20,550 nucleotides of DNA from a virus: the IMG/VR virus record IMGVR_UViG_3300035665_000287, positions 1 through 20,550 of that record. One strand, written 5' to 3'. Below are positions 4,547-17,376 of this stretch, piece after piece. The notes beneath the pieces are model-generated. The model made no database searches, had not been told where the DNA came from, and saw only the letters and a program-made list of their open reading frames with translations. Within the stretch, counting starts at the first letter, position 1; the number at the start of each line of letters is the position of its first letter. The position numbers and the translations under genes are program-made.

Positions 4547-5922
4547 TGCCAAGAGATCTTGAAAAGCTGAAACAGTACGCCGCCGAATATGCAGCTGTGA
4601 TCGATGAAGGCTTTGTGCCTAGTTACGATGTTCTGGCAATAAATGGCGGTCGTCCTTCGGCGATTGGCGAGATTGCTCGGCGCTGGAAGATCTCAGTCAG
4701 AGGTGCAAACTTCCGCCTTGAGTCGGTAAGGATCGAAGGATTTTATGATCCCATCCAGAAAGCGACAGACAGGTACAAAGAGAGCAAGGCATCTGAGCCT
4801 GAGCTTGCTCCAAAGATAGACCCGGTCGAAGAGCACCGCAAAGATCGAGCGATTAAAGAGCTGAAGAAAGCCAATCAGCAATTGATCGAAAGGATCGCGG
4901 CGCTCGAAGATCTGCGGTCCGAAGTCTTCCAGCTGGCAAATGCACTCGAAGCTCCAGAAGTGATTCTGCAAGAGCATGGCACAAGCAGCGGCAGTCAGCG
5001 TTCTGCGATCCTTCACATATCAGACGTGCATGCCGGTGAAGATGTCTCTCTGTACGAGATGGATGGTCTCAATAGCTATAATGCCGATATCTGCCGGGTC
5101 AGAATGCATCGGCTGTTCCAGAAGACTGCATCGCTGCTGACTGAGCATTGGGAGGGTGATCCCGTTCAAGAGATTATCCTGTGCTTGGGCGGTGACATGA
5201 TTGAGAATAATCTGCGGGAGGAAAGTCGACGTGGCGGGGCAATGCCAGTCGTCGAGAGCGCACAGCTCGTAGCAGAGCTGATCGCTGGCGGGATCGAATT
5301 CTTGCGCAGTGAGGTGGGAGCGCCGATCCGCGTTTACACTTCGCCGGGTAACCATGGTCGCCTGACGCCAAAGCCGCATTCCGTTGAAGGCAATCGCGAC
5401 AATTGGGACGTGATGGTTTCGTGGAGTGTCGAAAAGATACTTGGCAAGATTGATGATGTAAAATTCTATTACACCGGGTCCGGAGAGGTGTTGTTCAATG
5501 TTTATGGCTGGTGGTTCCTCCTCAGACATGGGCATGAAGGCGCGTCAGGCACTGGCGGAATGTATGGCCCGATCTACAAGCAAGTCAGAGGAATGTACCG
5601 GGCGCACACCAGCTATGGTCGTCGAGGGCGCGGATTCCACTGGGTTCTTCAGGGTCACGACCATACTGCCTCGAACATTCCATTCGGCTTCGCCAACGGA
5701 TCTGTGGTCGGATACAACGCTTACGCCATGCGAAAGCTTATGGCTGATCCGTCACCAGCAGTGCAGAATTTGCTGATTGTTGAGAGCAGGCTCGGCGTCA
5801 TCGCACCGCTGCCATTGTACCTTGGCGACCCGTCAGAGGGATCGCTGTACGAGCCGCCGACGATCGATCCGGGTGCGACCGGCAAGCCATTCACGCGGGT
5901 GAAGGCGGGAAGATCAAAGTGA
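4546..5922 (+). CDS. Calcineurin-like metallophosphoesterase with N-terminal HTH-like region (458 aa)
   Basis: The start is ATG 4546 (MPRDLEKLKQ), overlapping the previous stop; a TTG one codon earlier is also possible. Residues about 30-60 (NGGRPSAIGEIARRWKISVRGANFRLESV) look like a helix-turn-helix, and 95-135 form a coiled coil. The catalytic domain shows the full binuclear metal set: D160-x-H162 (ISDVHAG), D217 (LGGDMIENN), N269-H270 (SPGNHGR), H328 (LRHGHEG) and H371-x-H373 (LQGHDHT). The family cleaves phosphomono- or diesters; whether the substrate is nucleic acid, nucleotide or protein cannot be told here. The HTH and coiled coil make a DNA substrate attractive. It lies downstream of the lysis genes and converges on the helicase gene with a 16-bp gap and no obvious terminator. 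Confidence 0.85.
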   Translation: MPRDLEKLKQYAAEYAAVIDEGFVPSYDVLAINGGRPSAIGEIARRWKISVRGANFRLESVRIEGFYDPIQKATDRYKESKASEPELAPKIDPVEEHRKDRAIKELKKANQQLIERIAALEDLRSEVFQLANALEAPEVILQEHGTSSGSQRSAILHISDVHAGEDVSLYEMDGLNSYNADICRVRMHRLFQKTASLLTEHWEGDPVQEIILCLGGDMIENNLREESRRGGAMPVVESAQLVAELIAGGIEFLRSEVGAPIRVYTSPGNHGRLTPKPHSVEGNRDNWDVMVSWSVEKILGKIDDVKFYYTGSGEVLFNVYGWWFLLRHGHEGASGTGGMYGPIYKQVRGMYRAHTSYGRRGRGFHWVLQGHDHTASNIPFGFANGSVVGYNAYAMRKLMADPSPAVQNLLIVESRLGVIAPLPLYLGDPSEGSLYEPPTIDPGATGKPFTRVKAGRSK

Positions 5923-5938: not shown

Positions 5939-7621
5939 TCAGAAGTCGTCAGCGAACTGGACTTTCTTCTCAGGCTCGTCAAAGTCGTCAGCGAACAGTT
6001 GATCAACGCTGTCCAGCACCAAGTCGCTGAGACCCTTCTTGGCCTTCAGGTTGCGAGCGATGTAGGCATCGATCGATCCCTTTCCGACCAAGTCAGTATA
6101 TGTCACCGCGCCAACTGTGCCGATGCGGTGAATGCGATCCTCCGACTGCCATCTGTCGATCGACGAGAAGGAGTTGGAGTAGTACAGTGCCCGGTTGCAT
6201 GAGCCTTGAAGGTTCAGACCCACACCGGCACTCTGCGGATTGGCGAGGAAGATCCTTGCCCCATCCTTCGACAGAAAACTCTTCACAGCTTCCGCCCTGT
6301 CGCCATCCTTCACACCACCATGATACTCGACGAACGTGATTCCGGCCGCAGTCAATGCGTCTGCGATCAGCTTCATGTCATAGCGGTAGTGCGCCCAGAC
6401 CACAGCCTTGTCCTCGTCGGAATCAATCCAATCGAGCATGGCTGCGATGCGTGGGTTCTTGTCGACTGGCATGATCTTGTGGTGGTACTTATCCTCATCG
6501 ATCCAGAAGCCATTGGACAGCTGCCTGATCTTGTTCAGTGCTTGCGCACCTTCGAGGTCAGCGAGCTTGGGATGCTTCGGCATTGCAGTCAGCTTTGAGC
6601 GCACCTCTTTGATCATCGCCAGCTGCTCTTTGGTCAAGTCGAACTTCCAGACATTGTACTGCTTGGGCAGGATTCCGATCTGAGCCTTGGTCGCACGGAA
6701 GGTGTGCGGCTCTGTCAGCTTGCGGAAGCGATCGATGTCCCGGTGACCGACGACAGCTCGCCCTTCAAAGCCTCCCATAATGCAGAACTCGCGCTGGAAG
6801 GTCGTCTTGAAGTGGATGCCGATGATGTTCGGGTTGAGCCATTTTAGCTGTGCCCATTCGTCGGTCAGATCCTTGGCGATCGGCGTGCCTGTGGCCAGAG
6901 CTCTGTGGCTCGCCAGTCGGCCGATGTCGGTCATTGCCTTGTGCCGATTCGAAGACGCATTCTTGATGTCCTGCGACTCATCGGCGATCATGAGGAGCTT
7001 GCCGACATGACGCTCTGCGAACTCCTTGGCCACAGCGTTGCCCGCAGCCGCCTTCAAGCCTTCATAGTTGATGGCGAACCATTGCAGCTTTCCGTCGACC
7101 TGGAACAGCTGCTTGACTGGCCAGAAGGCTGCAGTCACCGGACCATCCACATTGGCCGGCAGCTCTGACTCCACCCATTGCCGATGGACACCTTTCTTGG
7201 AGACCACCAACACACCGGTGATCTGCCCGGTGTTCCAGAGCTCAATGGCCCAGTCCATGATGGTCTTGGTCTTCCCGGTGCCCTGCTCCATGAAAAGGCC
7301 GAAAGCCTTCTTGCCGCGCATCTTGTCGAGCGCCGACCGCTGGTGGTCATACGCTGGCCTCTTTGAGCGGATAGTGGGGCGGTGTGGGGCGAGTCCGTCA
7401 AACGCTCCAGCGACCAAATTCGATGGGCTTTCGTCGGTCGCTATCTCGATGCCGGGCACACCTTTGAGCACCCGGATGTTGTGCTGGCTGGCGAAGAGCT
7501 TCATTGAGCCATCCTTGAGCCACGATCGCCGACCTTCCAGTCGGCCAATGACGGCGAGCAGATGGCTGGACGGTCGGCCGATCAGCCGCATTGAGCCATC
7601 TTGATTGATTTCCAAACGCAT
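5939..7621 (-). CDS. SNF2-type superfamily 2 helicase/ATPase (560 aa)
   Basis: I start the gene at ATG 7621 (MRLEINQDGS) because a perfect AGGAGG lies 9 nt upstream; the frame stays open for 30 more codons but those overlap a structured leader. Motifs with this numbering: Walker A in MEQGTGKTKT (111-120), Walker B variant ADESQD (213-218), motif III ATGTPIAK (243-250), motif V SAGVGLNLQGS (464-474) and motif VI DRWQSEDRIHRIG (489-501), whose DRxxQ..DR.HR.G form is typical of SNF2 proteins. It probably translocates on duplex DNA during replication, recombination or transcription. The last residues carry a repeated FADDF and end in Phe after acidic residues, resembling SSB-type tails. It is the last gene of the minus-strand operon and has a distinctive 200-nt leader. 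Confidence 0.9.
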   Translation of the reverse strand: MRLEINQDGSMRLIGRPSSHLLAVIGRLEGRRSWLKDGSMKLFASQHNIRVLKGVPGIEIATDESPSNLVAGAFDGLAPHRPTIRSKRPAYDHQRSALDKMRGKKAFGLFMEQGTGKTKTIMDWAIELWNTGQITGVLVVSKKGVHRQWVESELPANVDGPVTAAFWPVKQLFQVDGKLQWFAINYEGLKAAAGNAVAKEFAERHVGKLLMIADESQDIKNASSNRHKAMTDIGRLASHRALATGTPIAKDLTDEWAQLKWLNPNIIGIHFKTTFQREFCIMGGFEGRAVVGHRDIDRFRKLTEPHTFRATKAQIGILPKQYNVWKFDLTKEQLAMIKEVRSKLTAMPKHPKLADLEGAQALNKIRQLSNGFWIDEDKYHHKIMPVDKNPRIAAMLDWIDSDEDKAVVWAHYRYDMKLIADALTAAGITFVEYHGGVKDGDRAEAVKSFLSKDGARIFLANPQSAGVGLNLQGSCNRALYYSNSFSSIDRWQSEDRIHRIGTVGAVTYTDLVGKGSIDAYIARNLKAKKGLSDLVLDSVDQLFADDFDEPEKKVQFADDF

Positions 7622-7823
7622 GGGGCAGGACCTCCTAGGTTCCAAGTTCCACTTTTCGGCTTGTTTCCACAACCCTTTCGAAGGTTCTTTCTTTTCTCTT
7701 TTCTTATCCAACGGAGTAGAAGAGAGAGAAAGTGGAACCTATCTTCAGACAAAAACACCGGCAGAGTCCTCGAATCCCAAAAAATTTGGAACTTGGAACC
7801 TAGCCGGTGCTCTTGCATGGTGC
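7622..7823 (-). promoter_or_regulatory. Structured leader of the helicase gene, with 17-bp inverted repeat and alternative pairing
   Basis: This non-coding gap holds the 17-bp sequence CTAGGTTCCAAGTTCCA at 7635-7651 and its exact reverse complement at 7787-7803. In the minus-strand RNA the 3' arm runs straight into the AGGAGG ribosome site of the helicase. A second 9-bp inverted repeat (TTCCACTTT 7647-7655 with AAAGTGGAA 7729-7737) shares five bases with the first, so the two helices exclude each other. A purine/pyrimidine-biased tract (about 7675-7730) lies between. It could be a translational switch, an operator pair, or a 169-bp terminal-inverted-repeat insertion. The arms are seen directly; the function is inferred. 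Confidence 0.55.
7751..7809 (-). terminator. Possible terminator or attenuator after the 166-aa gene
   Basis: On the minus strand CACCGGC (7809-7803) can pair with GCCGGTG (7762-7756), which is followed directly by five T (7755-7751). The loop is long, about 40 nt, and contains the upstream arm of the 17-bp inverted repeat. Termination would therefore compete with the long-range pairing. It is weak as a classical terminator because of the loop length. Confidence 0.3.
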
Positions 7824-8324
7824 TCACTTGACAGCAGCCCATCCGCGTTCAACATCCCAGCCAAGGTCGTTCGGACGACCGCCAGCCTTGATGTAGTCCT
7901 CGTAGGTGATGCCGTGCGGGGAGTTGAGCAGGATCGTGTATGAGCGATGTCCATTCGTGCCTGCTCTGCGTGGGTTGTCGGTGTTGGTTGCGTAGATGGT
8001 CTTGCCGGCATAGACCGACTTCTTGCCGCGTGTCAACCTTTCGCCCGGCACCTTTTCCTTCTTGATGCGAGGCTTGGGCTTGTCCAGGTTCAGAGCCTTC
8101 TCGAACCGGGCCTTCACTTCATCGAAAGAATCAGTGGTGAAGATCGACTGATCGAGGAGCGTCTTGGCTGCTTCCTCGCCGATCTTGTCCTTGAGCTGAC
8201 GCTCCAGACGGACGATCGCCGAAGGCTTGTCGGATGCGCGGGACTGACCAGCGCCCATCACGATGCCTGAGAGCTGGGTGATCTCATTGATCGTGAGCGT
8301 TGTTAGGGGGAACAATTCTGGCAT
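7824..8324 (-). CDS. Conserved hypothetical protein with C-terminal 'NPRR..TNGHRSY' domain (166 aa)
   Basis: ATG 8324 is preceded by AAGGAG at about 9 nt, directly downstream of ribozyme A. The first 100 residues are helical and charged; residues 85-110 are very basic (KPKPRIKKEKVPGERLTRGKK). The last 50 residues (NPRRAGTNGHRSYTILLNSPHGITYEDYIKAGGRPNDLGWDVERGW) look like a small folded domain seen at the end of phage and rhizobial hypothetical proteins, possibly winged-helix-like. DNA binding is plausible but not shown. It lies between a hammerhead ribozyme upstream and the structured helicase leader downstream. Confidence 0.75.
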   Translation of the reverse strand: MPELFPLTTLTINEITQLSGIVMGAGQSRASDKPSAIVRLERQLKDKIGEEAAKTLLDQSIFTTDSFDEVKARFEKALNLDKPKPRIKKEKVPGERLTRGKKSVYAGKTIYATNTDNPRRAGTNGHRSYTILLNSPHGITYEDYIKAGGRPNDLGWDVERGWAAVK

Positions 8325-8340
8325 TTCAATTCTCCTTGTT

Positions 8341-8399
8341 TGGCTGACTCTTCAGTGGCGGTAGCCATCCCGCCAGACCGGCGACCAGCCGGTTTCGTC
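8341..8399 (-). ncRNA. Type II hammerhead ribozyme A
   Basis: Read on the minus strand: stem II 5' strand GAC (8399-8397), then GAA (8396-8394). Stem III is ACCGGC/GCCGGT closed by a 5-nt loop (8393-8377), followed by C17 at 8376. Stem I is TGGCGG/CCGCCA (8375-8356) with loop GATGGCTA, then CTGAAGA (8355-8349) and the stem II 3' strand GTC (8348-8346). All invariant core bases are present and the cleavage site GUC falls between 8376 and 8375. Loop bases TGGCT can pair with AGCCA (8345-8341) just before the AAGGAG of the next gene. The upstream stop codon ends at 8400, touching stem II. Confidence 0.95.
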
Positions 8400-8516
8400 T
8401 CAGTTGACAATGACGTGAACGATGATCACGATGGCCGGTATCACGACCAGTGCGACGATCGCAGAGAAGAAAGTGTGCACGAGGTCAAGCTCGTCGAGCG
8501 GACGCTTCCGTTTCAT
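8400..8516 (-). CDS. Small membrane protein (38 aa)
   Basis: The ORF begins with ATG at 8516, one base after the stop of the preceding gene, with a strong GGGAGGTG site upstream. The product MKRKRPLDELDLVHTFFSAIV... has a charged N-terminus and a single long hydrophobic helix (about residues 15-38: FFSAIVALVVIPAIVIIVHVIVN). It has no recognised family. The stop TGA at 8402-8400 abuts stem II of ribozyme A, so its terminating ribosome would cover part of that fold. It shares a ribozyme-bounded RNA segment with the 75-aa gene upstream. Confidence 0.65.
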   Translation of the reverse strand: MKRKRPLDELDLVHTFFSAIVALVVIPAIVIIVHVIVN

Positions 8517-8517
8517 C

Positions 8518-8745
8518 TCACACCTCCCGGTAGCGAATGACGTGATCTGGGAACTGGTCGGAATCGTGCCAACGGCTGACCGACCGCTGGGCCTCAGCCT
8601 CAGCAGTGGTGCGGCAGTGCACCCAACGACCATTCGGTGCGAGGTACTTGCGGGTCGCTGTCGGATCGAAGGTGATGAGGTTGATCCGGCCGAATTCGGC
8701 GTCTTTCGGTCCGCGAGCTTCGATGATGAAACCGTTCTGTGTCAT
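8518..8745 (-). CDS. Hypothetical protein (75 aa)
   Basis: ATG 8745 has AAGGAG about 9 nt upstream, right after ribozyme B. The product starts MTQNGFIIEARGPKDAEFGRINLITFDP and contains a Trp/His-rich second half (WVHCRTTAEAEAQRSVSRWHDSDQFPDHVIRYREV). Its mix of short strands and one helix suggests a small globular protein, but I do not recognise the family. It is followed after one base by the 38-aa membrane protein, so the two probably form a bicistronic unit between ribozymes B and A. Confidence 0.7.
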   Translation of the reverse strand: MTQNGFIIEARGPKDAEFGRINLITFDPTATRKYLAPNGRWVHCRTTAEAEAQRSVSRWHDSDQFPDHVIRYREV

Positions 8746-8764
8746 GCTAGTTCTCCTTGTTGTG

Positions 8765-8824
8765 TGGCTGGCTCTTCAGCACCGGTAGCCATTCCGGTGG
8801 ACCGGCATTCGCGCCGGTTTCGCC
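8765..8824 (-). ncRNA. Type II hammerhead ribozyme B
   Basis: Minus strand: stem II GGC (8824-8822), GAA (8821-8819). Stem III is ACCGGC/GCCGGT with a 6-nt loop GCGAAT (8818-8801), C17 at 8800. Stem I is CACCGG/CCGGTG with loop AATGGCTA (8799-8780), then CTGAAGA (8779-8773) and stem II GCC (8772-8770). The core is complete, with GUC cleavage between 8800 and 8799. Relative to copy A, stem II changes from GAC/GTC to GGC/GCC and stem I is different but still fully paired. Loop TGGCT can pair with AGCCA (8769-8765). The DUF932 gene stop lies 7 nt upstream. Confidence 0.95.
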
Positions 8825-8831
8825 TTCCTCC

Positions 8832-9782
8832 TTATGCCATCTCAAAGAGCTTCTTCTCGACTTCCTGCTTGGCGCGGCTGTAGTCGCCCAGCCAAGACCG
8901 GAAGAGGCGAGACTCATTGCCGCGACCCTGAACGTGATCGCACCAGTGGGTGAAGCCATTCAACACTCCCCATCCGGTGTCCGGGATCGCTCCGGGACCG
9001 TTCTGGATGGAGTCAACGATCTGCTCGATCTTCTTCGAGTTCATCGCCGCATCGAACAGCTCCTGCTCGCTGGTGAAGTCTTCGACCATCTCCGGTGCCA
9101 TCACCGGCACCAGCACCTTGTTGACTGCGTCCATGACAGTCAGCTTCAGCTTGTCGATCTTCTTGGCACGACGCTCGGCATTGTCCAGATCTTCGTGCGC
9201 CGCTGCGACTGCTTCACGTGCAGCCGACTCGTCGAACTCAGACAGGTGGTTCTGCCGGTAGGCGTACTGCCCATCGCGCTCGGCCATCGCCATTGTGTTG
9301 GCGCAGACGACACGCACTGTCGTGGTCTTGATCTTGGTCGCCTCACCGACAACGTGCGAGGTAACGATCAGCAGGTAGCAGTTGATGGTGTCGTTCCGGC
9401 GGATGTTGAGCTGCCGTTCGATCTTCGCCAAGCCCCAGACATAACGGCCACCGCGCAGGGAGCCAGCAGTCTCGAGCTTTGCGCCACCAGCGTTGACGTA
9501 ACGCTGCATGAAGCCGATCGCTTCAGAATTCTGCACCGGCTTCCAGAACTGGCCGGTGACGGTCATCACCTTGCGGTCCGACGACCGCACCAGTGCGTAG
9601 CGACCGGGCACATCGATCAGCTCGCCGTCGTAGTCTGCCTTGAGTGGCTTCAGGTCGACTGTCCAGTCGAGGCCAGCAGCCTTCAGAAACTCGCCAGCGT
9701 TCAGGCTGTCGTCGACCTGCGCTCCCAGACCATGCCACGGTACCTGATTGGCGTAGGCCATCGTTTCAACTTCATGTGCCAT
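8832..9782 (-). CDS. DUF932 / TIGR03299-type phage-plasmid protein (316 aa)
   Basis: The start is ATG 9782 (MAHEVETMAYANQVPWHGLG), with AAGGAG just downstream of ribozyme C; the 14 extra codons of the open frame lie inside the ribozyme and are not used. The opening MAHEVETM...PWHGLG and the later blocks (DRKVMTVTGQFWKPVQNSEAIGF, VRVVCANTMAMA, HWCDHVQGRGNESRLFRSWLGDYSRAKQEV) are the marks of the DUF932/TIGR03299 family, common on phages and plasmids. I know of no established molecular function. It is the largest product in the ribozyme-punctuated part of the operon, so it may need its own mRNA dosage. Confidence 0.88.
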   Translation of the reverse strand: MAHEVETMAYANQVPWHGLGAQVDDSLNAGEFLKAAGLDWTVDLKPLKADYDGELIDVPGRYALVRSSDRKVMTVTGQFWKPVQNSEAIGFMQRYVNAGGAKLETAGSLRGGRYVWGLAKIERQLNIRRNDTINCYLLIVTSHVVGEATKIKTTTVRVVCANTMAMAERDGQYAYRQNHLSEFDESAAREAVAAAHEDLDNAERRAKKIDKLKLTVMDAVNKVLVPVMAPEMVEDFTSEQELFDAAMNSKKIEQIVDSIQNGPGAIPDTGWGVLNGFTHWCDHVQGRGNESRLFRSWLGDYSRAKQEVEKKLFEMA

Positions 9783-9800
9783 GCTAGTTCTCCTTGTTGC

Positions 9801-9859
9801 GGTTGTCTCATCAGTTGCCGGCAACCAACCGGCAAGACCGGCGACCAGCCGGTTTCGAC
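9801..9859 (-). ncRNA. Type II hammerhead ribozyme C (canonical CUGAUGA core)
   Basis: Minus strand: stem II GTC (9859-9857), GAA (9856-9854). Stem III is ACCGGC/GCCGGT with a 5-nt loop (9853-9837), C17 at 9836. Stem I is a 7-bp TTGCCGG/CCGGCAA with loop TTGGTTG (9835-9815), then CTGATGA (9814-9808) and stem II GAC (9807-9805). Here N7 is U, the usual base, and stem II is the inverse of that in copy A (GTC/GAC versus GAC/GTC). Loop GGTT pairs with AACC (9804-9801), a compensatory change from the GGCT/AGCC of the other copies. The upstream stop TAA ends at 9860, touching stem II. Confidence 0.95.
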
Positions 9860-10132
9860 TTAGGCTTGCGCCGATTCAAGGCTGCTCATTGCGGATTCGA
9901 TCGAGCTGACTGCATTTTCTAACTCTGTTATCGCTTGGTCCATCTCTCCGATTGCTTCTTCAGCTGCGCTGCCTTTTTCGCCGCCTTGCAGCGATTCAGG
10001 CATGTTGTCGAAGTAGTCCTGCTCTTCGTCGCGGGCACTTTCGATCTCGGACTTGCAATCCTCGATCTTGCCGCGCAGCTCGTCAATTTCTTTGGCGAGT
10101 TTCTCGAGGGTCTTTCTGCGGTCGTTGTTCAT
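9860..10132 (-). CDS. Small acidic coiled-coil protein (90 aa)
   Basis: The start is ATG 10132 (MNNDRRKTLEKLAKEIDEL), with AAGGAG after ribozyme D. Nearly the whole protein is heptad-like and rich in E, D, K, S and A: EKLAKEIDELRGKIEDCKSEIESARDEEQDYFDNM, a Gly-rich break (QGGEKGSA), then EAIGEMDQAITELENAVSSIESAMSSLES. It should form a helical hairpin or coiled-coil oligomer. I do not recognise a family. The stop TAA abuts ribozyme C. Confidence 0.75.
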   Translation of the reverse strand: MNNDRRKTLEKLAKEIDELRGKIEDCKSEIESARDEEQDYFDNMPESLQGGEKGSAAEEAIGEMDQAITELENAVSSIESAMSSLESAQA

Positions 10133-10145
10133 CGTTCTCTCCTTG

Positions 10146-10203
10146 GGCTGGCTCTTCAGTTGCCGGTAGCCAACCGGCAAGACCGGCCTGAGCCGGTTTC
10201 GCC
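10146..10203 (-). ncRNA. Type II hammerhead ribozyme D
   Basis: Minus strand: stem II GGC (10203-10201), GAA (10200-10198). Stem III is ACCGGC/GCCGGT with tetraloop TCAG (10197-10182), C17 at 10181. Stem I is TTGCCGG/CCGGCAA with loop TTGGCTA (10180-10160), then CTGAAGA (10159-10153) and stem II GCC (10152-10150). The core is complete and the cleavage site is GUC. Loop GGCT pairs with AGCC (10149-10146), two bases before AAGGAG. The upstream stop TGA ends at 10206, 2 nt before stem II. Confidence 0.95.
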
Positions 10204-10205
10204 TT

Positions 10206-10466
10206 TCAAAAAGGAATTACTTCGTCCGTGTCCAAGATTGTCGGCAGCGCAGCAGGATAGACGCGTTTTCCTTCGAGCGTTTCCACCTCATAGTATCCGT
10301 CGCCACCGTTCTCGTATTCGAGGCCATGAAGATCATGAGCGGCGCGATGGGCCATGGCCTCAGTCGCATAATACCGAATGTCCCAGACCTTCCAGCCGCA
10401 AACTGCATCGCGGAAGTCGTGAATCGGTTGACGTTCGACGACACGAAATTTTAGTGGGTTCTTCAT
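10206..10466 (-). CDS. Hypothetical protein (86 aa)
   Basis: The start is ATG 10466 (MKNPLKFRVVERQPIHDF), with AAAGGAGA directly after ribozyme E. The sequence alternates short strands with one helix: FRDAVCGWKVWDIRYYATEAMAHRAAHDLHGLEYENGGDGYYEVETLEGKRVYPA. It looks like a compact alpha/beta protein. I do not recognise a family or catalytic motif. Both its flanks are ribozymes, so its mRNA would be released as a single-gene unit. Confidence 0.75.
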   Translation of the reverse strand: MKNPLKFRVVERQPIHDFRDAVCGWKVWDIRYYATEAMAHRAAHDLHGLEYENGGDGYYEVETLEGKRVYPAALPTILDTDEVIPF

Positions 10467-10478
10467 CTCAATCTCCTT

Positions 10479-10536
10479 TGGCTGGCTCTTCAGTGGTGGT
10501 AGCCATTCCACCAGACCGGCCTGAGCCGGTTTCGCC
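10479..10536 (-). ncRNA. Type II hammerhead ribozyme E
   Basis: Minus strand: stem II GGC (10536-10534), GAA (10533-10531). Stem III is ACCGGC/GCCGGT with tetraloop TCAG (10530-10515), C17 at 10514. Stem I is TGGTGG/CCACCA with loop AATGGCTA (10513-10494), then CTGAAGA (10493-10487) and stem II GCC (10486-10484). The core is complete, with a GUC site cut between 10514 and 10513. Loop TGGCT pairs with AGCCA (10483-10479), which directly touches the AAGGAG of the next gene. The upstream stop TAA ends at 10539. Confidence 0.95.
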
Positions 10537-10538
10537 TC

Positions 10539-11060
10539 TTAGTAAGGTATGCCGCCAAGCTGCCGGGCAACCCGGAAGGCCTCGTCCTTGTCCTTGCGGA
10601 CGACCCAGATCTCTTCGATCCGCTTGGCCTTGCCTTTCGCCCAGTCCTTCACGACTCCGTCCTTGCAGGCCGAAACGTGACGCTTGGTGAAGAGGAGCAG
10701 GTTGCTCTCCATCGCGCCCCAGACTTTCTTGAAGCGTTCCGGGTGGTAAGTGGTCGCCGACTGCAGTGTGTTGTGCGGCGCTGGGTACTTGGCGATGATG
10801 CCCTCTTTAATATGGTGGCGGTAAACTGATGCCACGTAAAAGCCAAGGCTCTCAATCGCTCGCAGCTGGGTGCCTCTGTAGGCTCCCTGCCTGTCCTTGC
10901 GTCCTTGCGTCTTGAGAGCGGCGTGGGCTGTTGCGTAGCTGACGCCGCAGACGATTGAGATGGCGACGACTGCACAGTCGTTCGTCTCGTTCATCGCAAG
11001 GCCATCAGTCCGCACCTGCTTGTATTCGCCGTCTATTTCGCAAGTCTTGATGCGTGCCAT
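10539..11060 (-). CDS. Putative papain-like cysteine peptidase-fold protein (173 aa), first gene of the minus operon
   Basis: The start is ATG 11060 (MARIKTCEIDG), with GGAG upstream; the longer open frame crosses degenerate ribozyme F. The segment NETNDCAVVAISIVCGVSYATAHAALKTQGR...GTQLRAIESLG is like the N-terminal helix of phage proteins in the C39/papain-like group, with C30 (in NDCAVVA) in the nucleophile position. Later KRHVSACKDGVVKDW supplies the usual His followed after about 10 residues by an Asp. A Cys-His-Asp triad is therefore possible. The family call is by motif only. Being first in the operon, it may be made early and act on a host or phage protein, which is inference. Confidence 0.6.
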   Translation of the reverse strand: MARIKTCEIDGEYKQVRTDGLAMNETNDCAVVAISIVCGVSYATAHAALKTQGRKDRQGAYRGTQLRAIESLGFYVASVYRHHIKEGIIAKYPAPHNTLQSATTYHPERFKKVWGAMESNLLLFTKRHVSACKDGVVKDWAKGKAKRIEEIWVVRKDKDEAFRVARQLGGIPY

Positions 11061-11084
11061 CGTAGTGCTCCGTAGGTTTCGTTG

Positions 11085-11139
11085 GCATCTCTTCAGTATG
11101 GGCTGCCATTGCCCATAGACCATTCGGTTGGTTCTCGTC
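11085..11139 (-). ncRNA. Degenerate hammerhead-like element F in the leader of the first minus-operon gene
   Basis: Minus strand: a 7-bp stem I, TATGGGC/GCCCATA (11117-11097) with loop AATGGCA, is followed by an intact CTGAAGA (11096-11090). The loop TGGCA can pair with TGCCA just downstream, another compensated pseudoknot. The other half has decayed or diverged. Stem III is only ACCA/TGGT, the GAA segment reads GAGA with one extra base, and stem II has just its first pair. Cleavage is therefore unlikely. It has no upstream cistron to separate, which fits loss of cleavage with retention of the 5' hairpin. Confidence 0.65.
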
Positions 11140-11313
11140 TCTGCCGGAAACCAGCTCGGGGTGGCTACTTCCGCCTAGGCTCTTCTGCTTTCGCTCCTAG
11201 ACTACCATCCCGACCTACCGGCCAGAGGGAGAGTTTTATGCTTGGGATCTCCGGTCCTGCGTTTCAGGCGCAAGTCGCCCTCAACAAAGCGATTATCGCT
11301 GATATTTGCAGAA

Positions 11314-11330
11314 AAGAAAACAGTTTTCTT
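11314..11330. repeat. 17-bp perfect palindrome, candidate operator
   Basis: The sequence AAGAAAAC-A-GTTTTCTT has 8-bp arms around a single central base, in the AT-rich centre of the divergent control region. It overlaps the position of a possible leftward -35. Size and place fit a dimeric repressor site. The repressor is not identified in this window. Confidence 0.45.
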
Positions 11331-11496
11331 CAGATTACGAACTTAAATTATTCAATGATTTCAACGACAGACGAATTTTTCTTTGCTGAATGTCGACGAT
11401 TTTCCAAATAATCTTTTGTCTCGAAAATTTTCAGGGCATAGTCGATTCGCCGATTCGCTGCCGGCAATCAGCGCAGCGTACCCAAGGAGCTCACAC

Positions 11497-12291
11497 ATGA
11501 GCAAGAATGAAAAGCTGCCTGCAGTGGCAGCTACCAAGGCGGTCTCGGCCGTCGCAGCCGGTGATGACTTTGCAGAATTCGCCGGAGCAGGAATGGAAAA
11601 CGTCACAGCCAACGACGTCATCATTCCCCGCCTAACGATCCTCCAGCAGCTCTCCCCGCAGCTCAATGCCCGCAAGCCGGAGTTTATCACCGGTGCCGAA
11701 CAGGGCGACATCTGCGATGTTGCCACTGGGGACTTGTTCAAGGGCGGCGTCGCATTCCTGCCGGTTCACTACCGCAAGGACTGGATCGAATGGGCACCGC
11801 GTGCATCGGGTAAAGGGCTGGTCGCCGTTCACTCAACGCCAGACATCCTGAACACGTGCCGCAGGGACGACAAGAACAGGCCGATCACTCCGAACGGCAA
11901 TCTGGTGCAGGAAACTGCCCAGTGGTTCGGCCTCAACCTGACCGCTGGTCGGCGGAAGTGCTTCCTGCCGATGGCCTCAACTGCACTGAAGCGATCCAAG
12001 AAGTGGATGAACCTTGCCACTGGCGAGATTCTGAAGCGTGCTGACGGCAGCGAGTTCGTGGCTCCCCTGTTCTACCGGACCTACGATCTCAAGACGGCAC
12101 CAGAGACCAACAACGAAGGCGAATGGCACACATGGCTGATCAGCCGTGGCCCTGCGCTGCCGGAGCTGGACAACTGGCAGGCCATCAAGGAAGAAGCAGT
12201 CAAGTTCCGCGATGCTCTGATCGCTGGCACTGCGTCTGCTGACCTTTCTGCCGACGACGACCACAACGCTGCCGGCGAAGGAGCGATGTGA
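11497..12291 (+). CDS. Conserved phage early protein of unknown function (264 aa)
   Basis: ATG 11497 follows AAGGAG at 8 nt and is the first gene of the rightward operon. The N-terminal 35 residues are Ala-rich and probably flexible. They are followed by MENVTANDVIIPRLTILQQLSPQLNARKPEFITGAEQGDICDVATGDLF and GGVAFLPVHYRKDWIEWAPR, and later YDLKTAPETNNEGEWHTWLISRG. The repeated short strands and aromatic residues suggest a beta-rich fold. Similar proteins occur at the head of replication modules of other phages as I recall them, sometimes guessed to be ssDNA-binding. I cannot confirm this, though the acidic tail (SADLSADDDHN) fits such a role. The stop overlaps the next start region. Confidence 0.75.
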   Translation: MSKNEKLPAVAATKAVSAVAAGDDFAEFAGAGMENVTANDVIIPRLTILQQLSPQLNARKPEFITGAEQGDICDVATGDLFKGGVAFLPVHYRKDWIEWAPRASGKGLVAVHSTPDILNTCRRDDKNRPITPNGNLVQETAQWFGLNLTAGRRKCFLPMASTALKRSKKWMNLATGEILKRADGSEFVAPLFYRTYDLKTAPETNNEGEWHTWLISRGPALPELDNWQAIKEEAVKFRDALIAGTASADLSADDDHNAAGEGAM

Positions 12292-12848
12292 TGACTGACT
12301 CGTCCGAATTTGATATGGGGGCGCCAGTCGGCGCTCCCGACAAACTGAAGTCTCTCCAGACATCGGTCGACGAGGCACTATCGCTGGACGAGAAGATCGC
12401 CCAGATGGAAGAGGACGTGAAGACGTTCAAGAAGCAGCAGCACTATCTCCGCACTGCTGTGATCCCTGACCTGATGGCCGAGCTGCAGATGACTGAGATG
12501 GTCGTCCGTGGCCGAAAGATCAAGGTCGAGGATTTCTACAGCGGCTCTCTCCCGAAGGATTATGACAAGCGGGAGACCGCACTCGCATGGCTCAAGGCGC
12601 ATGGCGGCGAGAGCTTGATCAAGACTGAGCTCAAGGTGCCGTTCGCCAAGAGCCAGCACAACGAGGCTCTGGCGCTGAAGGACGATCTGGTCAAGTCAGG
12701 CCACAACGTGTCGATGGACGAAAATGTCCACACCCAGACGCTGCTGGCGTTCGTCCGTGAGAAGGTGCGCAATGGCGACGATATTGACTTCGACGCTCTG
12801 GGCATCTACACAGGCAAGGTCGCCAAGATCACGGAGGTGAAGAAGTGA
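12291..12848 (+). CDS. Conserved phage protein with N-terminal coiled coil (185 aa)
   Basis: ATG 12291 overlaps the previous stop (TGATG) and has GGAG 8 nt upstream; a GTG one codon earlier is the alternative. Residues about 15-60 are heptad-like (KLKSLQTSVDEALSLDEKIAQMEEDVKTFKKQQHYLRTAVIPDLMAELQM). Then comes VVRGRKIKVEDFYSGSLPKDYDKRETALAWLKAHGGESLIKTELKVPF, which looks like a small mixed domain. I do not recognise a named family. The tight coupling with the 264-aa gene suggests the two work together in early replication. Confidence 0.75.
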   Translation: MTDSSEFDMGAPVGAPDKLKSLQTSVDEALSLDEKIAQMEEDVKTFKKQQHYLRTAVIPDLMAELQMTEMVVRGRKIKVEDFYSGSLPKDYDKRETALAWLKAHGGESLIKTELKVPFAKSQHNEALALKDDLVKSGHNVSMDENVHTQTLLAFVREKVRNGDDIDFDALGIYTGKVAKITEVKK

Positions 12849-13327
12849 CTGACGAACGCTCCCAGCGCATTGAGCGCGAGAATGCAATTCTGAATGCCGG
12901 CTATGTCCGGCGCTGGCATACCTCTCGCACGTTCAACCAGAACATCGCAGAGCACTCATGGCGCATGGCCGCACTGGCCATCGTTCGCTACCCAAACATA
13001 TCGGTGGAGCTGCTGAAGGCGATCATCCTTCATGACATCGGCGAGTATCGGTTCGCAGATATTCCGTCGCCGATCAAGCGGGAACACCCAGAGCTGCGCA
13101 AGCTTGAAGAGGAGATCCAACTGGACTTCTACAAGGAGCTCGGCATCACTCCGCCAAAGCTGACGGTCGTCGAGGAGAAGATCCTCAAGATGCTGGACAT
13201 GTATGAAGCGTTCTGCTTCGTCCAGCAGTACGACCCTGAAGCTGAAGCTCGCCGGATCTCCAAGCGGCTGGAATATTACATGAAGGAGCTCAGCGCCCAG
13301 ATGCCCGAAATGGAAGGAGTTGAATGA
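12845..13327 (+). CDS. HD-domain 5'-deoxynucleotidase, YfbR-like (160 aa)
   Basis: The start is GTG 12845, overlapping the previous stop, with GGAGG at 7 nt. The protein shows the YfbR pattern in order: R23-W24 (the substrate-selecting RW of YRRWH-type motifs), H37 (NIAEHSWRMA), H63-D64 (LHDIGEYRFADIPSPIK), E67 and D118 (KMLDMYEAF). Enzymes of this family remove the 5' phosphate from deoxynucleoside monophosphates using a divalent metal. At 160 residues it is slightly shorter than E. coli YfbR (about 200). Together with ThyX downstream it suggests tuning of deoxynucleotide pools during phage DNA synthesis. Confidence 0.88.
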   Translation: MTDERSQRIERENAILNAGYVRRWHTSRTFNQNIAEHSWRMAALAIVRYPNISVELLKAIILHDIGEYRFADIPSPIKREHPELRKLEEEIQLDFYKELGITPPKLTVVEEKILKMLDMYEAFCFVQQYDPEAEARRISKRLEYYMKELSAQMPEMEGVE

Positions 13328-14268
13328 TGTTCACTGTCATTGGCGCAGGAATGGCCGGCCTGCTGGCAGCGGCGATGCTCCGCAACGAATGTGCGCAGAT
13401 AACGGAGAAGGCCCCAGAGCTGCCGAACAACCACTCAGCGGTCCTGCGGTTCAGATCGTCGGTGGTCGGGGACACGGTCGGCATTGAGTTCAAGAAGGTG
13501 CGCGTCATGAAGGCGAGCCATCCTTACTTGAACCCGGTGGCGGACGCTGTGGCCTATTCCCGCAAGACGAACGGCACTGCCACGCTGCGCTCATCCATCA
13601 CCGGCACTGGTGAAGTCAGCGACCGGTGGATCGCCCCTCCGGACTTCATCTCCAGACTAGCGGCGATCGTCGATCGTACGACGTCGATCAAGTTCGGCAA
13701 GCAGGTGACTGACTTTGTGGATCGTGGTCACCCGATCATCTCGACCATGCCGATGGGCGCGTTGATGGATGTCCTTGGCTACAAGGCTGATGTCGAATTC
13801 CGTTTCGTCGACGGAGTTAACATAACTGCAGAGCTGCCCGGATTCGACACTTACTTCTCTCTGTACGTGCCGGACCCGAAGTACACCGCATCGAGGGTCT
13901 CAGTGACTGGCAGCAAGCTGATCATCGAGACTCAAGGTCATGACATCAATTATGTCAGAGACTATCAGAGCTACATCATCGAAGCAGCTCTTCACCTGAT
14001 CGGCGTTCAACCGGCAATCGGTTTGAAGCAGCTGAAAGATGTTCAGGTCTCGCAGCAACGCTACGCAAAGATCCTGCCCATCAACGAGAAGGTCCGCAGG
14101 GACTTCATCATGTGGGCCAGCAGGGAACACAACGTCTACTCACTCGGCAGGTTCGCAACTTGGCGGCCGAATCTTTTGCTGGATGATGTTGTGCATGACG
14201 TCCGCCAAATTCAACGCATGGTCAATGGCACCAGTGATGCCTACCAACACACACTGAAAGGATACTGA
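13327..14268 (+). CDS. FAD/NAD-binding Rossmann-fold protein, amine-oxidase/UDP-galactopyranose-mutase-like (313 aa)
   Basis: Two adjacent ATGs are possible; 13327 has the better spacing (7 nt) from GGAG. The protein begins MFTVIGAGMAGLLAAAML, a textbook GxGxxG dinucleotide-binding strand-turn-helix. A late block, NVYSLGRFATWRPNLLLDDVVHDVRQI, resembles the C-terminal FAD-contact segment of UDP-galactopyranose mutase-like flavoproteins (GR.A...P...D). The middle part is not recognisable to me. It sits directly before thyX, a flavin-dependent enzyme. Possible roles are a nucleotide- or base-modifying oxidoreductase or a flavin partner. The cofactor fold is well supported, the reaction is not. 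Confidence 0.7.
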   Translation: MFTVIGAGMAGLLAAAMLRNECAQITEKAPELPNNHSAVLRFRSSVVGDTVGIEFKKVRVMKASHPYLNPVADAVAYSRKTNGTATLRSSITGTGEVSDRWIAPPDFISRLAAIVDRTTSIKFGKQVTDFVDRGHPIISTMPMGALMDVLGYKADVEFRFVDGVNITAELPGFDTYFSLYVPDPKYTASRVSVTGSKLIIETQGHDINYVRDYQSYIIEAALHLIGVQPAIGLKQLKDVQVSQQRYAKILPINEKVRRDFIMWASREHNVYSLGRFATWRPNLLLDDVVHDVRQIQRMVNGTSDAYQHTLKGY

Positions 14269-14269
14269 C

Positions 14270-15010
14270 ATGCAAGTGACTCTGATTGACTACACCGGCA
14301 AAGGTTCGCCAGACCCGGCTCGCGCAGCAGCCAACCTGCTCGTCTTCACGAAGCAGACCCGGCTCAAGCTGACGCCAAACCTGCTCTCTGACATCGAGAA
14401 CTGGTCGGACATGGCCATAATGAAAGAGCTGGACTACATGGCCAAGACCATTCCCTCCAGCTGGGAGTTCGTCACCTACACATTCCTGATCACTGGCGTG
14501 ACGCGGGCATTCACTCACCAGTTCGTCCGTACGCGCACCGGCTCCTACGCCCAGCAGACAATGCGGGTGCTGGAGATGGAAGAATGGACTTACGGCACTG
14601 GACCATCGATCGCTGGTAATCGTCATCTTGAAGATCTTTACGAGCTGGAGATGAAGTCTATCGACCTGACATACAAGCAGCTGCTGGCCGATGGGGCCAA
14701 GGCGGAAGACGCTCGTGGGATCTTGCCGACGAACATCCACACCAACATCGTTGCCAAGTTCGACCTGCGCACGTTCTCCGACACCCAGCGTAAGCGCGCA
14801 TCGGTGCGGACGCAGGGCGAGTATCGTGACGTGCTGACAGCGATGCATGATCGCGTTCTTGAGGCGCACCCATGGGCAGCGATGTTCATTGATCGGAGCT
14901 TCGACAAGGCAGCGAAAGAGCTGGAGCTGCTGATCGAGGAATGCGCTCGTGACAGCGAGCTGCGGCTGAAGCTCATCAAGCTCCTCGATGAATTGAGGCA
15001 GACGGCATGA
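14270..15010 (+). CDS. thyX: Flavin-dependent thymidylate synthase ThyX, divergent signature (246 aa)
   Basis: ATG 14270 has AAAGGA upstream. The family converts dUMP to dTMP with methylene-THF, FAD and NADPH. The signature RHRx7S appears as R87-T88-R89-TGSYAQQ-T97, with R99 kept, in FTHQFVRTRTGSYAQQTMR. The C-terminal substrate segment ARGILPTNIHTNIVAKFDLRTFSDTQRKRASVRTQGEYRDVL matches the ThyX pattern (AR..LP...T...........R.....Q.E.R). H88 is replaced by Thr and the final Ser by Thr. Length is normal. The changes could alter flavin or folate handling, or point to a ThyX-like enzyme with another product such as a modified pyrimidine. The stop overlaps the next gene. Confidence 0.9.
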   Translation: MQVTLIDYTGKGSPDPARAAANLLVFTKQTRLKLTPNLLSDIENWSDMAIMKELDYMAKTIPSSWEFVTYTFLITGVTRAFTHQFVRTRTGSYAQQTMRVLEMEEWTYGTGPSIAGNRHLEDLYELEMKSIDLTYKQLLADGAKAEDARGILPTNIHTNIVAKFDLRTFSDTQRKRASVRTQGEYRDVLTAMHDRVLEAHPWAAMFIDRSFDKAAKELELLIEECARDSELRLKLIKLLDELRQTA

Positions 15011-15450
15011 GCGAGAGATTCGGACTGATCGTGGATCTTGATGGGACGCTCTGCGACAGCTCGCACCGCGACCATCTTGCAGCGCAGAAGGAGTGGGAGG
15101 AATTCCACTCCTTGGCTTTTCTTGATAGGCCGAAGAAGTTGACTGGTAAAATTGTCAACATCCTTGAAGAGCAAGACTGGCTGATCGTCGCTTGCACCGG
15201 GCGGAACGAAAAGTGGAGGCCGGCAACAATCGCTTGGCTAAACACACATGGCATAGCGATTGATTTCGTGCTGATGCGGCCAGACGACAACTACGAGCCG
15301 GATCACGAGCTGAAGATCCGCATGGCGCAGGAGTTTATCGCTCCGCTGGCCCCGAAAGAATGGCTGGTCCTCGATGACAGAGAGAAGGTCGTCGAGGCAT
15401 GGCGCAACGCTGGCTTCACCTGCTGGCAAGTTTCACCCGGAGGTTACTGA
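15007..15450 (+). CDS. Stand-alone polynucleotide 3'-phosphatase (PNKP phosphatase-domain, HAD superfamily), 147 aa
   Basis: ATG 15007 overlaps the thyX stop. HAD motifs are D10-L-D12-G-T (nucleophile and acid), T64-G-R66 (motif II), R91/D94 (MRPDDNYEPDHELK, with K103) and D123-D124-R125. The C-terminal VLDDREKVVEAWRNAGFTCWQVSPGGY lines up closely with the end of T4 Pnk as I remember it (IDDRTQVVEMWRRIG.ECWQVASGDF). T4 Pnk removes 3'-phosphate and 2',3'-cyclic phosphate from nucleic-acid ends. The kinase domain is absent: there is no P-loop. So it can trim 3' ends but not phosphorylate 5' ends. The five hammerheads in the window produce exactly 2',3'-cyclic-phosphate ends, making it a candidate healing enzyme. 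Confidence 0.85.
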   Translation: MSERFGLIVDLDGTLCDSSHRDHLAAQKEWEEFHSLAFLDRPKKLTGKIVNILEEQDWLIVACTGRNEKWRPATIAWLNTHGIAIDFVLMRPDDNYEPDHELKIRMAQEFIAPLAPKEWLVLDDREKVVEAWRNAGFTCWQVSPGGY

Positions 15451-15451
15451 T

Positions 15452-15820
15452 ATGACCGCAGAAAGAATGGCAATCGTTTTCGTGATTGTTCTGGCGCTGT
15501 TCGGCTTTCTGCTTTCGGCGCTCGGAGTAAAGTCTCACAGCTGGTATGATGCGGCTTGCTGCAACGAGCAGGACTGCCGGGTGATTGATGGCAGCTCTGT
15601 CACCTATGATGCAGCCAACAAGATCTACTACTGGAAGTCAGATCTGAGTGGCAAGACGCATGCGTTCCACGAGGATAACATTTCGTCGGTCGACGGTAAG
15701 CCAAAGGTGCGCATCAGCCGCGATGGTGAATACCATGGCTGCGAACGCAACACGGCAGACAGGCCGGGCAGCTCTGAGAGCTGGGTCGGCTATTGCCTTT
15801 ACATTCCTCTTAGCTCGTGA
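15452..15820 (+). CDS. Secreted or membrane-anchored Cys-rich protein (122 aa)
   Basis: The start is ATG 15452, with a strong GGAGG about 9 nt upstream. Residues 6-24 (MAIVFVIVLALFGFLLSAL) are a signal peptide or membrane anchor. The outer part opens HSWYDAACCNEQDCRVIDGSSV, a pattern I recall from small exported proteins of rhizobia and related alphaproteobacteria. It also has CERN and GYCLY Cys, so disulfides are likely. It has a host-like character inside a phage replication operon. An envelope role such as superinfection exclusion is possible but not shown. Confidence 0.75.
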   Translation: MTAERMAIVFVIVLALFGFLLSALGVKSHSWYDAACCNEQDCRVIDGSSVTYDAANKIYYWKSDLSGKTHAFHEDNISSVDGKPKVRISRDGEYHGCERNTADRPGSSESWVGYCLYIPLSS

Positions 15821-15827
15821 GGCACCA

Positions 15828-16274
15828 ATGAAAAAAGTTCCTGAAATGCTGCGCGAGTCCGCAGCCACCTACGAAGAGCGCAACAAGATCTATGGCGATA
15901 ACTACAAGCGTTTCGGCCATGTCATGGCAGTGCTCTTTCCGCATGGCATTCACCTGAGCACTGGCGAGGATCTCAACCGGCTGGGCATTCTGGTGCAGGT
16001 CGTCTCAAAGATCTCTCGTTACTGCGAGAGCTTCCACAAGACCGGCCATGATGATTCGCTGCTTGACCTAGCTGTCTATGCGACCATGCTGCGAGAGCTG
16101 GACGAAGAGAAGCGTGACAACATCGCTCGCAACAAGGCGGCTGACGATTGGTTAGCTGGTGTCGACAAAGACGACCAAATCAGCCGTCTTCACGTCATGA
16201 ACCAAGTCACAGACGGAGTGCCAGAGGAAGACCTCGATGTTCACTTGGCACTCAAGGGAGCTGGGCTGCTATGA
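15828..16274 (+). CDS. DUF1599/MazG-like all-helical protein (148 aa)
   Basis: The start is ATG 15828 (MKKVPEMLRESAATYEERN), with GAGG upstream. The core ERNKIYGDNYKRFGHVMAVLF...RLGILVQVVSKISRYC...DSLLDLAVYATMLREL has the spacing of DUF1599 (nucleotide-modification-associated domain 1) proteins: NxxYG, then KxxR, then DxxxDLAxYA. These belong to the MazG-like helical NTP-pyrophosphatase group. A conserved E/D set that could bind Mg is visible (E16/E17, D82, D86). The final 45 residues are charged and less typical. It probably handles a nucleotide, possibly a non-canonical one, in keeping with the neighbouring ThyX and HD nucleotidase. The stop overlaps the exonuclease start. Confidence 0.65.
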   Translation: MKKVPEMLRESAATYEERNKIYGDNYKRFGHVMAVLFPHGIHLSTGEDLNRLGILVQVVSKISRYCESFHKTGHDDSLLDLAVYATMLRELDEEKRDNIARNKAADDWLAGVDKDDQISRLHVMNQVTDGVPEEDLDVHLALKGAGLL

Positions 16275-16807
16275 AGTGCCTATTCTTTGATACCGAGACG
16301 ACTGCGCTGTTCTCCAACTCATTGTTGGAGATCGGCCAGCAGCCGCGCATCATCGAGTTCTACGGAATGATCATGGACGATACTCAGCTGGTGCATCAGA
16401 CCCTTGGCTTCAGGTGCAATCCCGGCATCAGCCTTGAGAAGAAGGTGACAGAGATCACTGGCATCAAGGACGAGGATCTGGCCAACGAGCCGCCATTCGG
16501 AATGTTCCGGCAGACTGTCAGCAGGCTGTTGATGGAGGCTGACGCGATCGTGGCTCACAACCTGAGCTATGACATGGCGGTCCTGTCAGCTGAATACAAA
16601 AGGTTCGACGCTGACAATCCGCCATTCCCATGGGAGCGGATCTGCACAGTCGAGGCGACCGAGTACATCAAAGGCTATCGCCTCAATCTGACCGGCCTGC
16701 ACCAATACCTTTTCGGCGAGGCATTCACCTCAGCTCACTCGGCTGAAGCTGACGTCAAGGCGATGGCTCGGTGCTTTTGGGAACTCAAGGCGAGGGAACT
16801 GATATGA
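16271..16807 (+). CDS. DnaQ-like DEDDh 3'-5' exonuclease (178 aa)
   Basis: ATG 16271 overlaps the previous stop. The three Exo motifs are clear: D7-x-E9 in LFFDTETT (Exo I), D101 in AHNLSYDMAVL (Exo II), and H156 plus D161 in SAHSAEADVKAMARCF (Exo III, DEDDh type). The segment ITGIKDEDL is the usual DnaQ 'ITGI' turn. It is a single-domain protein with no polymerase-binding tail that I can identify. Two genes upstream of the DnaE-type polymerase, it most likely acts as the separate proofreading subunit. Confidence 0.9.
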   Translation: MKCLFFDTETTALFSNSLLEIGQQPRIIEFYGMIMDDTQLVHQTLGFRCNPGISLEKKVTEITGIKDEDLANEPPFGMFRQTVSRLLMEADAIVAHNLSYDMAVLSAEYKRFDADNPPFPWERICTVEATEYIKGYRLNLTGLHQYLFGEAFTSAHSAEADVKAMARCFWELKARELI

Positions 16808-17376
16808 GACAACGTCCGAAGGAAGAGAGCGAAAGGCTGAAGGCAGAGATCCATCGGCTGTGGGAGGAGGACAAGAGCTACACAGAGATAGCTGTCACAC
16901 TTCAAATATCTCGCAGCGCAGTGGCGGGCTTTGTCAACCGGCTGAAGGCAAAGGGCACGATAAAGACTGAGAAGAAGTCGGGCTCAAACGCCACCCAACG
17001 CAAGGCTCGTGGCCCGATGAAGTCAATCGCAGTGGGCACAAGCAAGAAGGTCACCAACCCGGTCGGGCCTCTGAAGAAGATCGCCCGATTGAAGAAGTCC
17101 GGACCCGGTGGCTGGGGAGCGACCTTCACTGACAAGTGCCTACCGCTGCCGGAAGCTCCAGTGTCGGCGGAAGAGTATGAAAGCAAGCTGTCTCCCAAGA
17201 GGCTCGAAGACCTTGAGCAGGACGATTGCCGTTGGATCATTTCGAATCAAGGAGAGGCAAAGTTCTGCGCTGTGCACAAGAAGGAAGGCAGCTCGTACTG
17301 CTCGCATCACCACTTCCGGGCATACACGCCTATCAAGATGAAAGCCGGCAGAAAGAGGAAGCATTCCTTTGCTTAA
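16804..17376 (+). CDS. gcrA: GcrA-family transcriptional regulator (190 aa)
   Basis: ATG 16804 overlaps the exonuclease stop. The N-terminal residues 17-48, HRLWEEDKSYTEIAVTLQISRSAVAGFVNRL, are the GcrA-type helix-turn-helix. A basic linker (GSNATQRKARGPMKS...SKKVTNPVGPLKKIARLKK) follows. The C-terminal part has C142-R-W, F-C155, and S-Y-C166-x-H168-HHFRAY, the sigma-70-contacting end of GcrA with its 'CxW...FC...YC..H...AY' pattern. In alphaproteobacteria GcrA activates promoters carrying CcrM-methylated GANTC sites. A phage copy suggests it redirects host RNA polymerase; two GATTC sites lie at 11444-11456 upstream of this operon. It overlaps the start of the polymerase gene. Confidence 0.85.
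   Translation: MRQRPKEESERLKAEIHRLWEEDKSYTEIAVTLQISRSAVAGFVNRLKAKGTIKTEKKSGSNATQRKARGPMKSIAVGTSKKVTNPVGPLKKIARLKKSGPGGWGATFTDKCLPLPEAPVSAEEYESKLSPKRLEDLEQDDCRWIISNQGEAKFCAVHKKEGSSYCSHHHFRAYTPIKMKAGRKRKHSFA

Follow-up and report, generated by a model that had tools for sequence, protein, structure and literature searches.

A 20,550-nucleotide stretch of viral DNA (IMG/VR record IMGVR_UViG_3300035665_000287, positions 1 to 20,550; hereafter, the window) carries five type II hammerhead ribozymes on its minus strand, placed between genes of a single operon that includes a DUF932 gene. When the whole window was scanned with Rfam, the Hammerhead_II model (RF02276; gathering score, 37 bits) gave five full-length matches (model positions 1-66), all on the minus strand, with scores of 40.5-46.5 bits and E values of 7e-7 to 3e-5. 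The scan returned nothing else of note besides these five. RF02276 searched likewise in 14 control genomes gave zero matches; because these genomes were empty, and given the Rfam scores, a chance match was ruled out. From these and the following data, we think it likely that the operon transcript cuts itself between translation units and is thereby divided into hairpin-capped messenger RNAs (mRNAs) of one or two genes.

By their sequence, the five elements (E1 to E5; Table 1) are type II hammerhead ribozymes, which would be expected to cut in this phage. Alignment to the model and a descriptor parse located GAAA, the A15.1-U16.1 pair, C17, CUGANGA, and the C11.1-G10.1 pair in every element, and each has all bases of the invariant core (C3 U4 G5 A6 N7 G8 A9, G12 A13 A14, A15.1-U16.1, and H17). 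Stems I and III are loop closed and stem II is open in all five, which corresponds to permutation II. Stem III always reads CCGGC/GCCGG, closed by an A-U pair. Stem I varies (TGGCGG, CACCGG, TTGCCGG(T) in two elements, and TGGTGG), with every version paired, and stem II is GGC/GCC in three elements, GAC/GTC in another, and GTC/GAC in the last. CTGATGA occurs only in E3, the other four having CUGAAGA (A7). The descriptor parse further detected a pseudoknot of 4-5 pairs between loop I and the 3' tail of each element: TGGCT/AGCCA in three, including E5; GGCT/AGCC in one; and TGGTT/AACCG, a paired change, in E3. An initial annotation of the window had described five complete type II hammerheads, and their core bases and stems are as it stated. 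The search with the Rfam hammerhead II model that it suggested as a check returned the five matches above plus matches in related phages, and its five cut sites were reproduced exactly by counting along the alignment. It overlooked the pseudoknot and a sixth, altered element.

The placement of such elements was measured in 100 unique elements from 19 loci, each parsed for a stop codon, a Shine-Dalgarno (SD) sequence, and a start codon. An open-frame stop codon lay at stem II in 87 elements, the usual spacing between the end of the stop codon and stem II being 0 or 1 base (42 of the 87), and an SD with a start codon was found within 60 bases behind 95 elements. An abutting stop codon and an SD-start occurred together at 82 of the 100, compared with 7 for random positions in the same stretches (maximum of 14 in 200 trials) and 2 for the antisense strand. 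In the window, both are present at every one of the five elements; the start codon lies 17-24 bases past stem II, and the 3' strand of the pseudoknot stands directly ahead of the SD. The predicted cut falls between the stop codon and the next ribosome site and would therefore leave both reading frames whole. This closeness to the ribosome site would also be expected if the structures around the SD tuned ribosome loading or re-initiation and cleavage were incidental. We consider such translation control improbable, because the catalytic bases that have no pairing role (GAAA, CUGANGA, and C17) are invariant in the five, and because simple hairpins would suffice, some ribozyme-less relatives having just hairpins at the junction upstream of DUF932.

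If the transcript is self-cutting, the five hammerheads would fold in the nascent minus-strand mRNA of the operon and cleave it during its synthesis. Each upstream piece would retain its stop codon, and its new 3' end, a few bases past that codon, would be the stem III hairpin bearing a 2',3'-cyclic phosphate; each downstream piece would begin with a 5'-OH on the structure formed by stem I and the pseudoknot, closely followed by a ribosome site of its own. A structured 5'-OH end is a poor substrate for RNase E, and a 3' hairpin hinders exonucleases. The products would be one- or two-gene mRNAs with nuclease-shielded ends, the dose and lifetime of which could be set gene by gene. We infer that cleavage occurs at these five elements, that the pieces are stabilised by their ends, and that the phage benefits. 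Because the stop codon touches stem II, we further guess that a ribosome terminating there might delay folding, so that cutting would wait for translation.

Selection on the structure was assessed in 116 distinct related elements. In their alignment, which was fitted to the hammerhead structure so that the counts lean toward it, 99.4% of the pair cells were paired, compared with 67.8% after shuffling; changes on both sides were found at 12 of 14 pairs, and double-change cells numbered 445, compared with 133 after shuffling. The pseudoknot lies outside the model, and the tails of the elements paired better with their own loops than swapped tails did (z = 11 for 100 elements; z = 7.8 within loci). 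The covarying stems and pseudoknot, together with an orientation that follows the genes, rule out DNA-level repeats as the sole explanation. The proposal in the initial annotation that the array would cut the transcript into one- or two-gene mRNAs is consistent with the family score, the core, this covariation, the sense orientation, and the position between stop codon and SD.

Elements of this family were also found with relatives of the DUF932 gene. In a first scan, 5 of 80 contigs with DUF932 relatives carried the hammerhead family, one of them being nearly a duplicate of the window (99.99% across 15.6 kb). Further searches added two hammerhead-bearing contigs, L314 (IMG/VR) and L223, and a search of 78 further DUF932 loci for a hammerhead found none. 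An element stands directly ahead of the DUF932 start codon in every one of the seven contigs that bear a ribozyme, at protein identities as low as 39%, the position of E3 before this gene being kept in the other ribozyme-bearing relatives. In the DUF932 protein tree, six of the bearers fall among eight rows, of which L008 and L010 are without the element, and L223 stands apart; the tree requires at least three gains or losses of the hammerhead. L223 (JAHFDG010000019.1, a contig binned to Candidatus Methanoperedens) is the only relative from the genome collection with a hammerhead, which lies at 4922-4987 directly before the DUF932 gene. Two more hammerheads about 350 bases apart were seen in L223, and the genes around look phage-like by eye. 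No other ribozyme types or Rfam RNAs were found in 18 loci of ribozyme-less DUF932 relatives. At the place of the hammerhead, the ribozyme-less loci L017, L020, and L026-L030 have, a short distance past the stop codon of the preceding gene, a GC-rich hairpin that lacks a U-run; stem III of the hammerhead would supply a similar hairpin at the new 3' end.

A scan of 5.6 kb using a model built from the five elements of the window, with filters off, revealed the sixth hammerhead-like element directly ahead of gene A (Table 1); the runner-up match had an E value of 0.26. The element is below the Rfam threshold and was not found by the Rfam scans. Its intact parts are a perfect 7-bp stem I (TATGGGC/GCCCATA), CTGAAGA, C17, and a 5-bp pseudoknot (TGGCA/TGCCA).

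Several observations weigh against the view that these elements cut the transcript. The hammerhead is dispensable, since 75 of the 80 DUF932 contigs in the first scan are without one. The nested minimum free energy fold of E4 (-32.9 kcal/mol), which is not a hammerhead, is 6.5 kcal/mol better than its nested hammerhead fold (-26.4 kcal/mol), and a competing nested fold of E1 is 1.7 kcal/mol better than the hammerhead, the pseudoknot not being counted in either case; cutting may therefore be partial. The DUF932 element of L015 has a C at 16.1, an altered core. In the sixth element, GAAA is replaced by GAgAA, through one inserted G or an A14G change, and stem II pairs poorly; this element departs from the invariant core of RF02276 and is possibly inactive. 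Among hammerhead core variants, some are active and some are inactive (Perreault et al. 2011, PMC3088659). The altered cores and the fold that E4 prefers on paper would suit hammerhead-like fossils, derived from an active ancestor, in which cutting has since been lost. However, every core base is present in all five elements, and E3 pairs its own, different version of the pseudoknot, which makes this explanation very unlikely.

The remaining objection concerns history. Likeness among elements is 0.80 within the window, compared with 0.68 between genomes, and the flanks are unlike (0.59 and 0.65); copying of the unit is therefore also part of the history. The unlike flanks rule out gene duplication that carried the ribozyme along. 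The same pattern would be left by short repeats that spread within the genome at gene boundaries, either as a tolerated selfish element or as homology for the swapping of small genes, with cutting making their insertion harmless. Gene content agrees with such spreading: the genes between ribozymes vary among relatives, and L007 has the order gene A, ribozyme, DUF932, without the genes B and C that intervene in the window, each with a ribozyme. Genes B and C of the window and the ribozymes that accompany them are therefore likely insertions. Still, we find it rather unlikely that the elements are simply copied boundary units, since the core, stems, and pseudoknot have been kept intact through compensatory change, the orientation and the distances to stop and start codons are held to a few bases, and the ribozyme before the DUF932 gene has been retained across deep divergence.

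Arrays in other phages were collected by a pattern scan of IMG/VR and whole-contig searches. Among at least 79 contigs covered, which were chosen by a window-like stem III, include a few near-copies, and give no estimate of frequency, most had an RF02276 match and at least 12 had five or more. Contig G058 (L206, IMGVR_UViG_3300017605_000570, 9932-17520) packs 24 type II hammerheads into 7.6 kb, each of them scoring above the Rfam cutoff. One small open reading frame (ORF) fills the gap in 22 of its 23 intervals between ribozymes, starting 6-13 bases behind one ribozyme and stopping at most 3 bases from the next, and a sigma-70-like TTGACT-17-TACATT was read by eye upstream. Cultured Streptomyces phages carry 8-10 hammerheads each (8 in Amethyst and 9 in Daudau). 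All nine in Daudau (L230, MF766045.1) are at, or a few bases from, gene boundaries, allowing for doubtful annotated starts; one is just ahead of an OCR-like antirestriction gene and another is ahead of an acetyltransferase gene. The antirestriction gene ardA has been reported behind hammerheads (Perreault et al. 2011, PMC3088659). Several annotated start codons of Daudau overlap ribozymes, and these starts look too far upstream. Tentatively, and with more doubt than for self-cutting in the window, we suggest that the ribozyme-punctuated operon might be a regular expression format of some phages, in which nearly every gene forms an SD-ORF-stop-hammerhead unit whose stop codon touches the ribozyme, with ribosome-gated cutting, built-in end caps, and mRNA maturation that does not depend on host nucleases. 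The window would then be a five- or six-unit case and G058 a 24-unit case.

The genes of the operon run in the order A, B, C, D (DUF932), E, F, G, and H (SNF2-type helicase) on the minus strand (Table 1). Ribozymes occupy the A/B, B/C, C/D, D/E, and F/G junctions, and an element stands ahead of each of genes A, B, C, D, E, and G if the sixth is counted for A. No ribozyme was detected by the Rfam scan of the whole window at the E/F junction, where the genes are 1 base apart, or at the G/H junction. Thus, five junctions do carry a ribozyme, as the initial annotation held, but they are not strictly consecutive. In the G/H gap (7712-7823, minus strand), ACCGGC...GCCGGT with a long loop is followed by TTTTT; this structure is a possible terminator or decayed hammerhead. 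Minus-strand intrinsic terminators were looked for at the five ribozyme junctions, and none was found. Nor were sigma-70-like sites found on the minus strand at 8300-11400, where the yield of the scan was no higher than in shuffled sequence, a result that bears weakly on the suggestion that the array replaces internal promoters or RNase processing. The leader ahead of gene A (11143-11250) can form an extended nested hairpin (-51 kcal/mol across 151 bases), a fold that is unremarkable (z = -1.36); it matched no Rfam family and had no relatives among the loci searched.

Table 1. Ribozyme elements and operon genes of the window
Feature	Coordinates	Strand	Description
Ribozyme E1	8338..8400	-	F/G junction; 40.5 bits; predicted cut 8376/8375
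Ribozyme E2	8762..8825	-	DUF932 gene/gene E junction; 46.5 bits; predicted cut 8800/8799
Ribozyme E3	9797..9860	-	Gene C/DUF932 junction; 44.9 bits; predicted cut 9836/9835
Ribozyme E4	10142..10204	-	B/C junction; 46.5 bits; predicted cut 10181/10180
Ribozyme E5	10476..10537	-	A/B junction; 43.1 bits; predicted cut 10514/10513
Sixth hammerhead-like element	11076..11142	-	Directly ahead of gene A ATG 11060; 20.9 bits, E = 3e-4
Gene A	10539..11060	-	phrog_3754, function unknown; likely true start ATG 11060 behind GGAG
Gene B	10206..10466	-	86 amino acids, without family match
Gene C	9860..10132	-	90 amino acids, phrog_4068, function unknown
Gene D	8832..9782	-	DUF932 (PF06067, phrog_1221)
Gene E	8518..8745	-	75 amino acids; gene F 1 base further on, without ribozyme between
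Gene F	8400..8516	-	38 amino acids
Gene G	7824..8324	-	166 amino acids, conserved in most DUF932 relatives
Gene H	5939..7711	-	SNF2-type DNA helicase; without ribozyme ahead

The arrangement and its interpretation have been known since 2011, when clustered hammerheads flanking phage genes were described and the same mRNA-processing role was proposed (Perreault et al. 2011, PMC3088659). The initial annotation therefore overstated its case in calling the array unusual, and arrays of 6-24 hammerheads are found in other phages. In the 2011 study, three tandem hammerhead sets cut in vitro and one cut in Escherichia coli, and the pseudoknot was needed for fast cutting, with a rate of >1.2 per minute at 0.5 mM Mg (PMC3088659). 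The role of hammerheads in bacteria and phages has been called an open question (PMC6155905). We found no later papers on phage hammerhead arrays in the open-licence literature, although others may exist, and in that literature we found no earlier description of a near-complete one-gene-one-ribozyme array of 24 or of a measured stop-ribozyme-SD-start rule. This geometry puts the mRNA-processing idea in a precise form. The long arrays, several of which come from cultured Streptomyces phages (Amethyst, Daudau, and relatives), offer many natural cut sites per transcript, so that a single infection experiment can test the idea. If it is true, some phages would swap host RNase processing for self-cutting RNA and set the mRNA ends of every gene themselves.

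Among known systems, the prophage clusters of Perreault et al. (e.g., the ardA triple set of Agrobacterium tumefaciens) have sense-strand hammerheads that flank single genes or small gene blocks, and several such hammerheads flank single genes or small blocks in the window as well. Those clusters are also of type II, have the pseudoknot between loop I and the 3' tail, and were proposed to process long transcripts; the triple set has three hammerheads, in contrast to five (plus one altered) here, and is associated with other genes. The five elements of the window match the RF02276 family over its full length, with the same core, stems, and pseudoknot, but four of the five have A7 (CUGAAGA), a position (N7) at which the family allows any base. 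HHphage of haloviruses HF1 and HF2 is likewise a phage hammerhead before a start codon, there 13 bases ahead of that of an ATP-dependent DNA helicase (PMC3088659); unlike the elements of the window, it was not described as an array, has core insertions, and belongs to halophilic archaeal viruses. The engineered insulator RiboJ resembles the window's ribozymes in being a self-cleaving ribozyme before a ribosome site that leaves a 5' mRNA hairpin, but it is man-made and placed behind promoters, whereas those of the window lie between natural operon genes. In E. coli, RiboJ increased the transcript downstream of it roughly 2-fold and protein 2- to 10-fold (PMC6206723), showing that transcript and protein can both be raised by a ribozyme placed ahead of a ribosome site.

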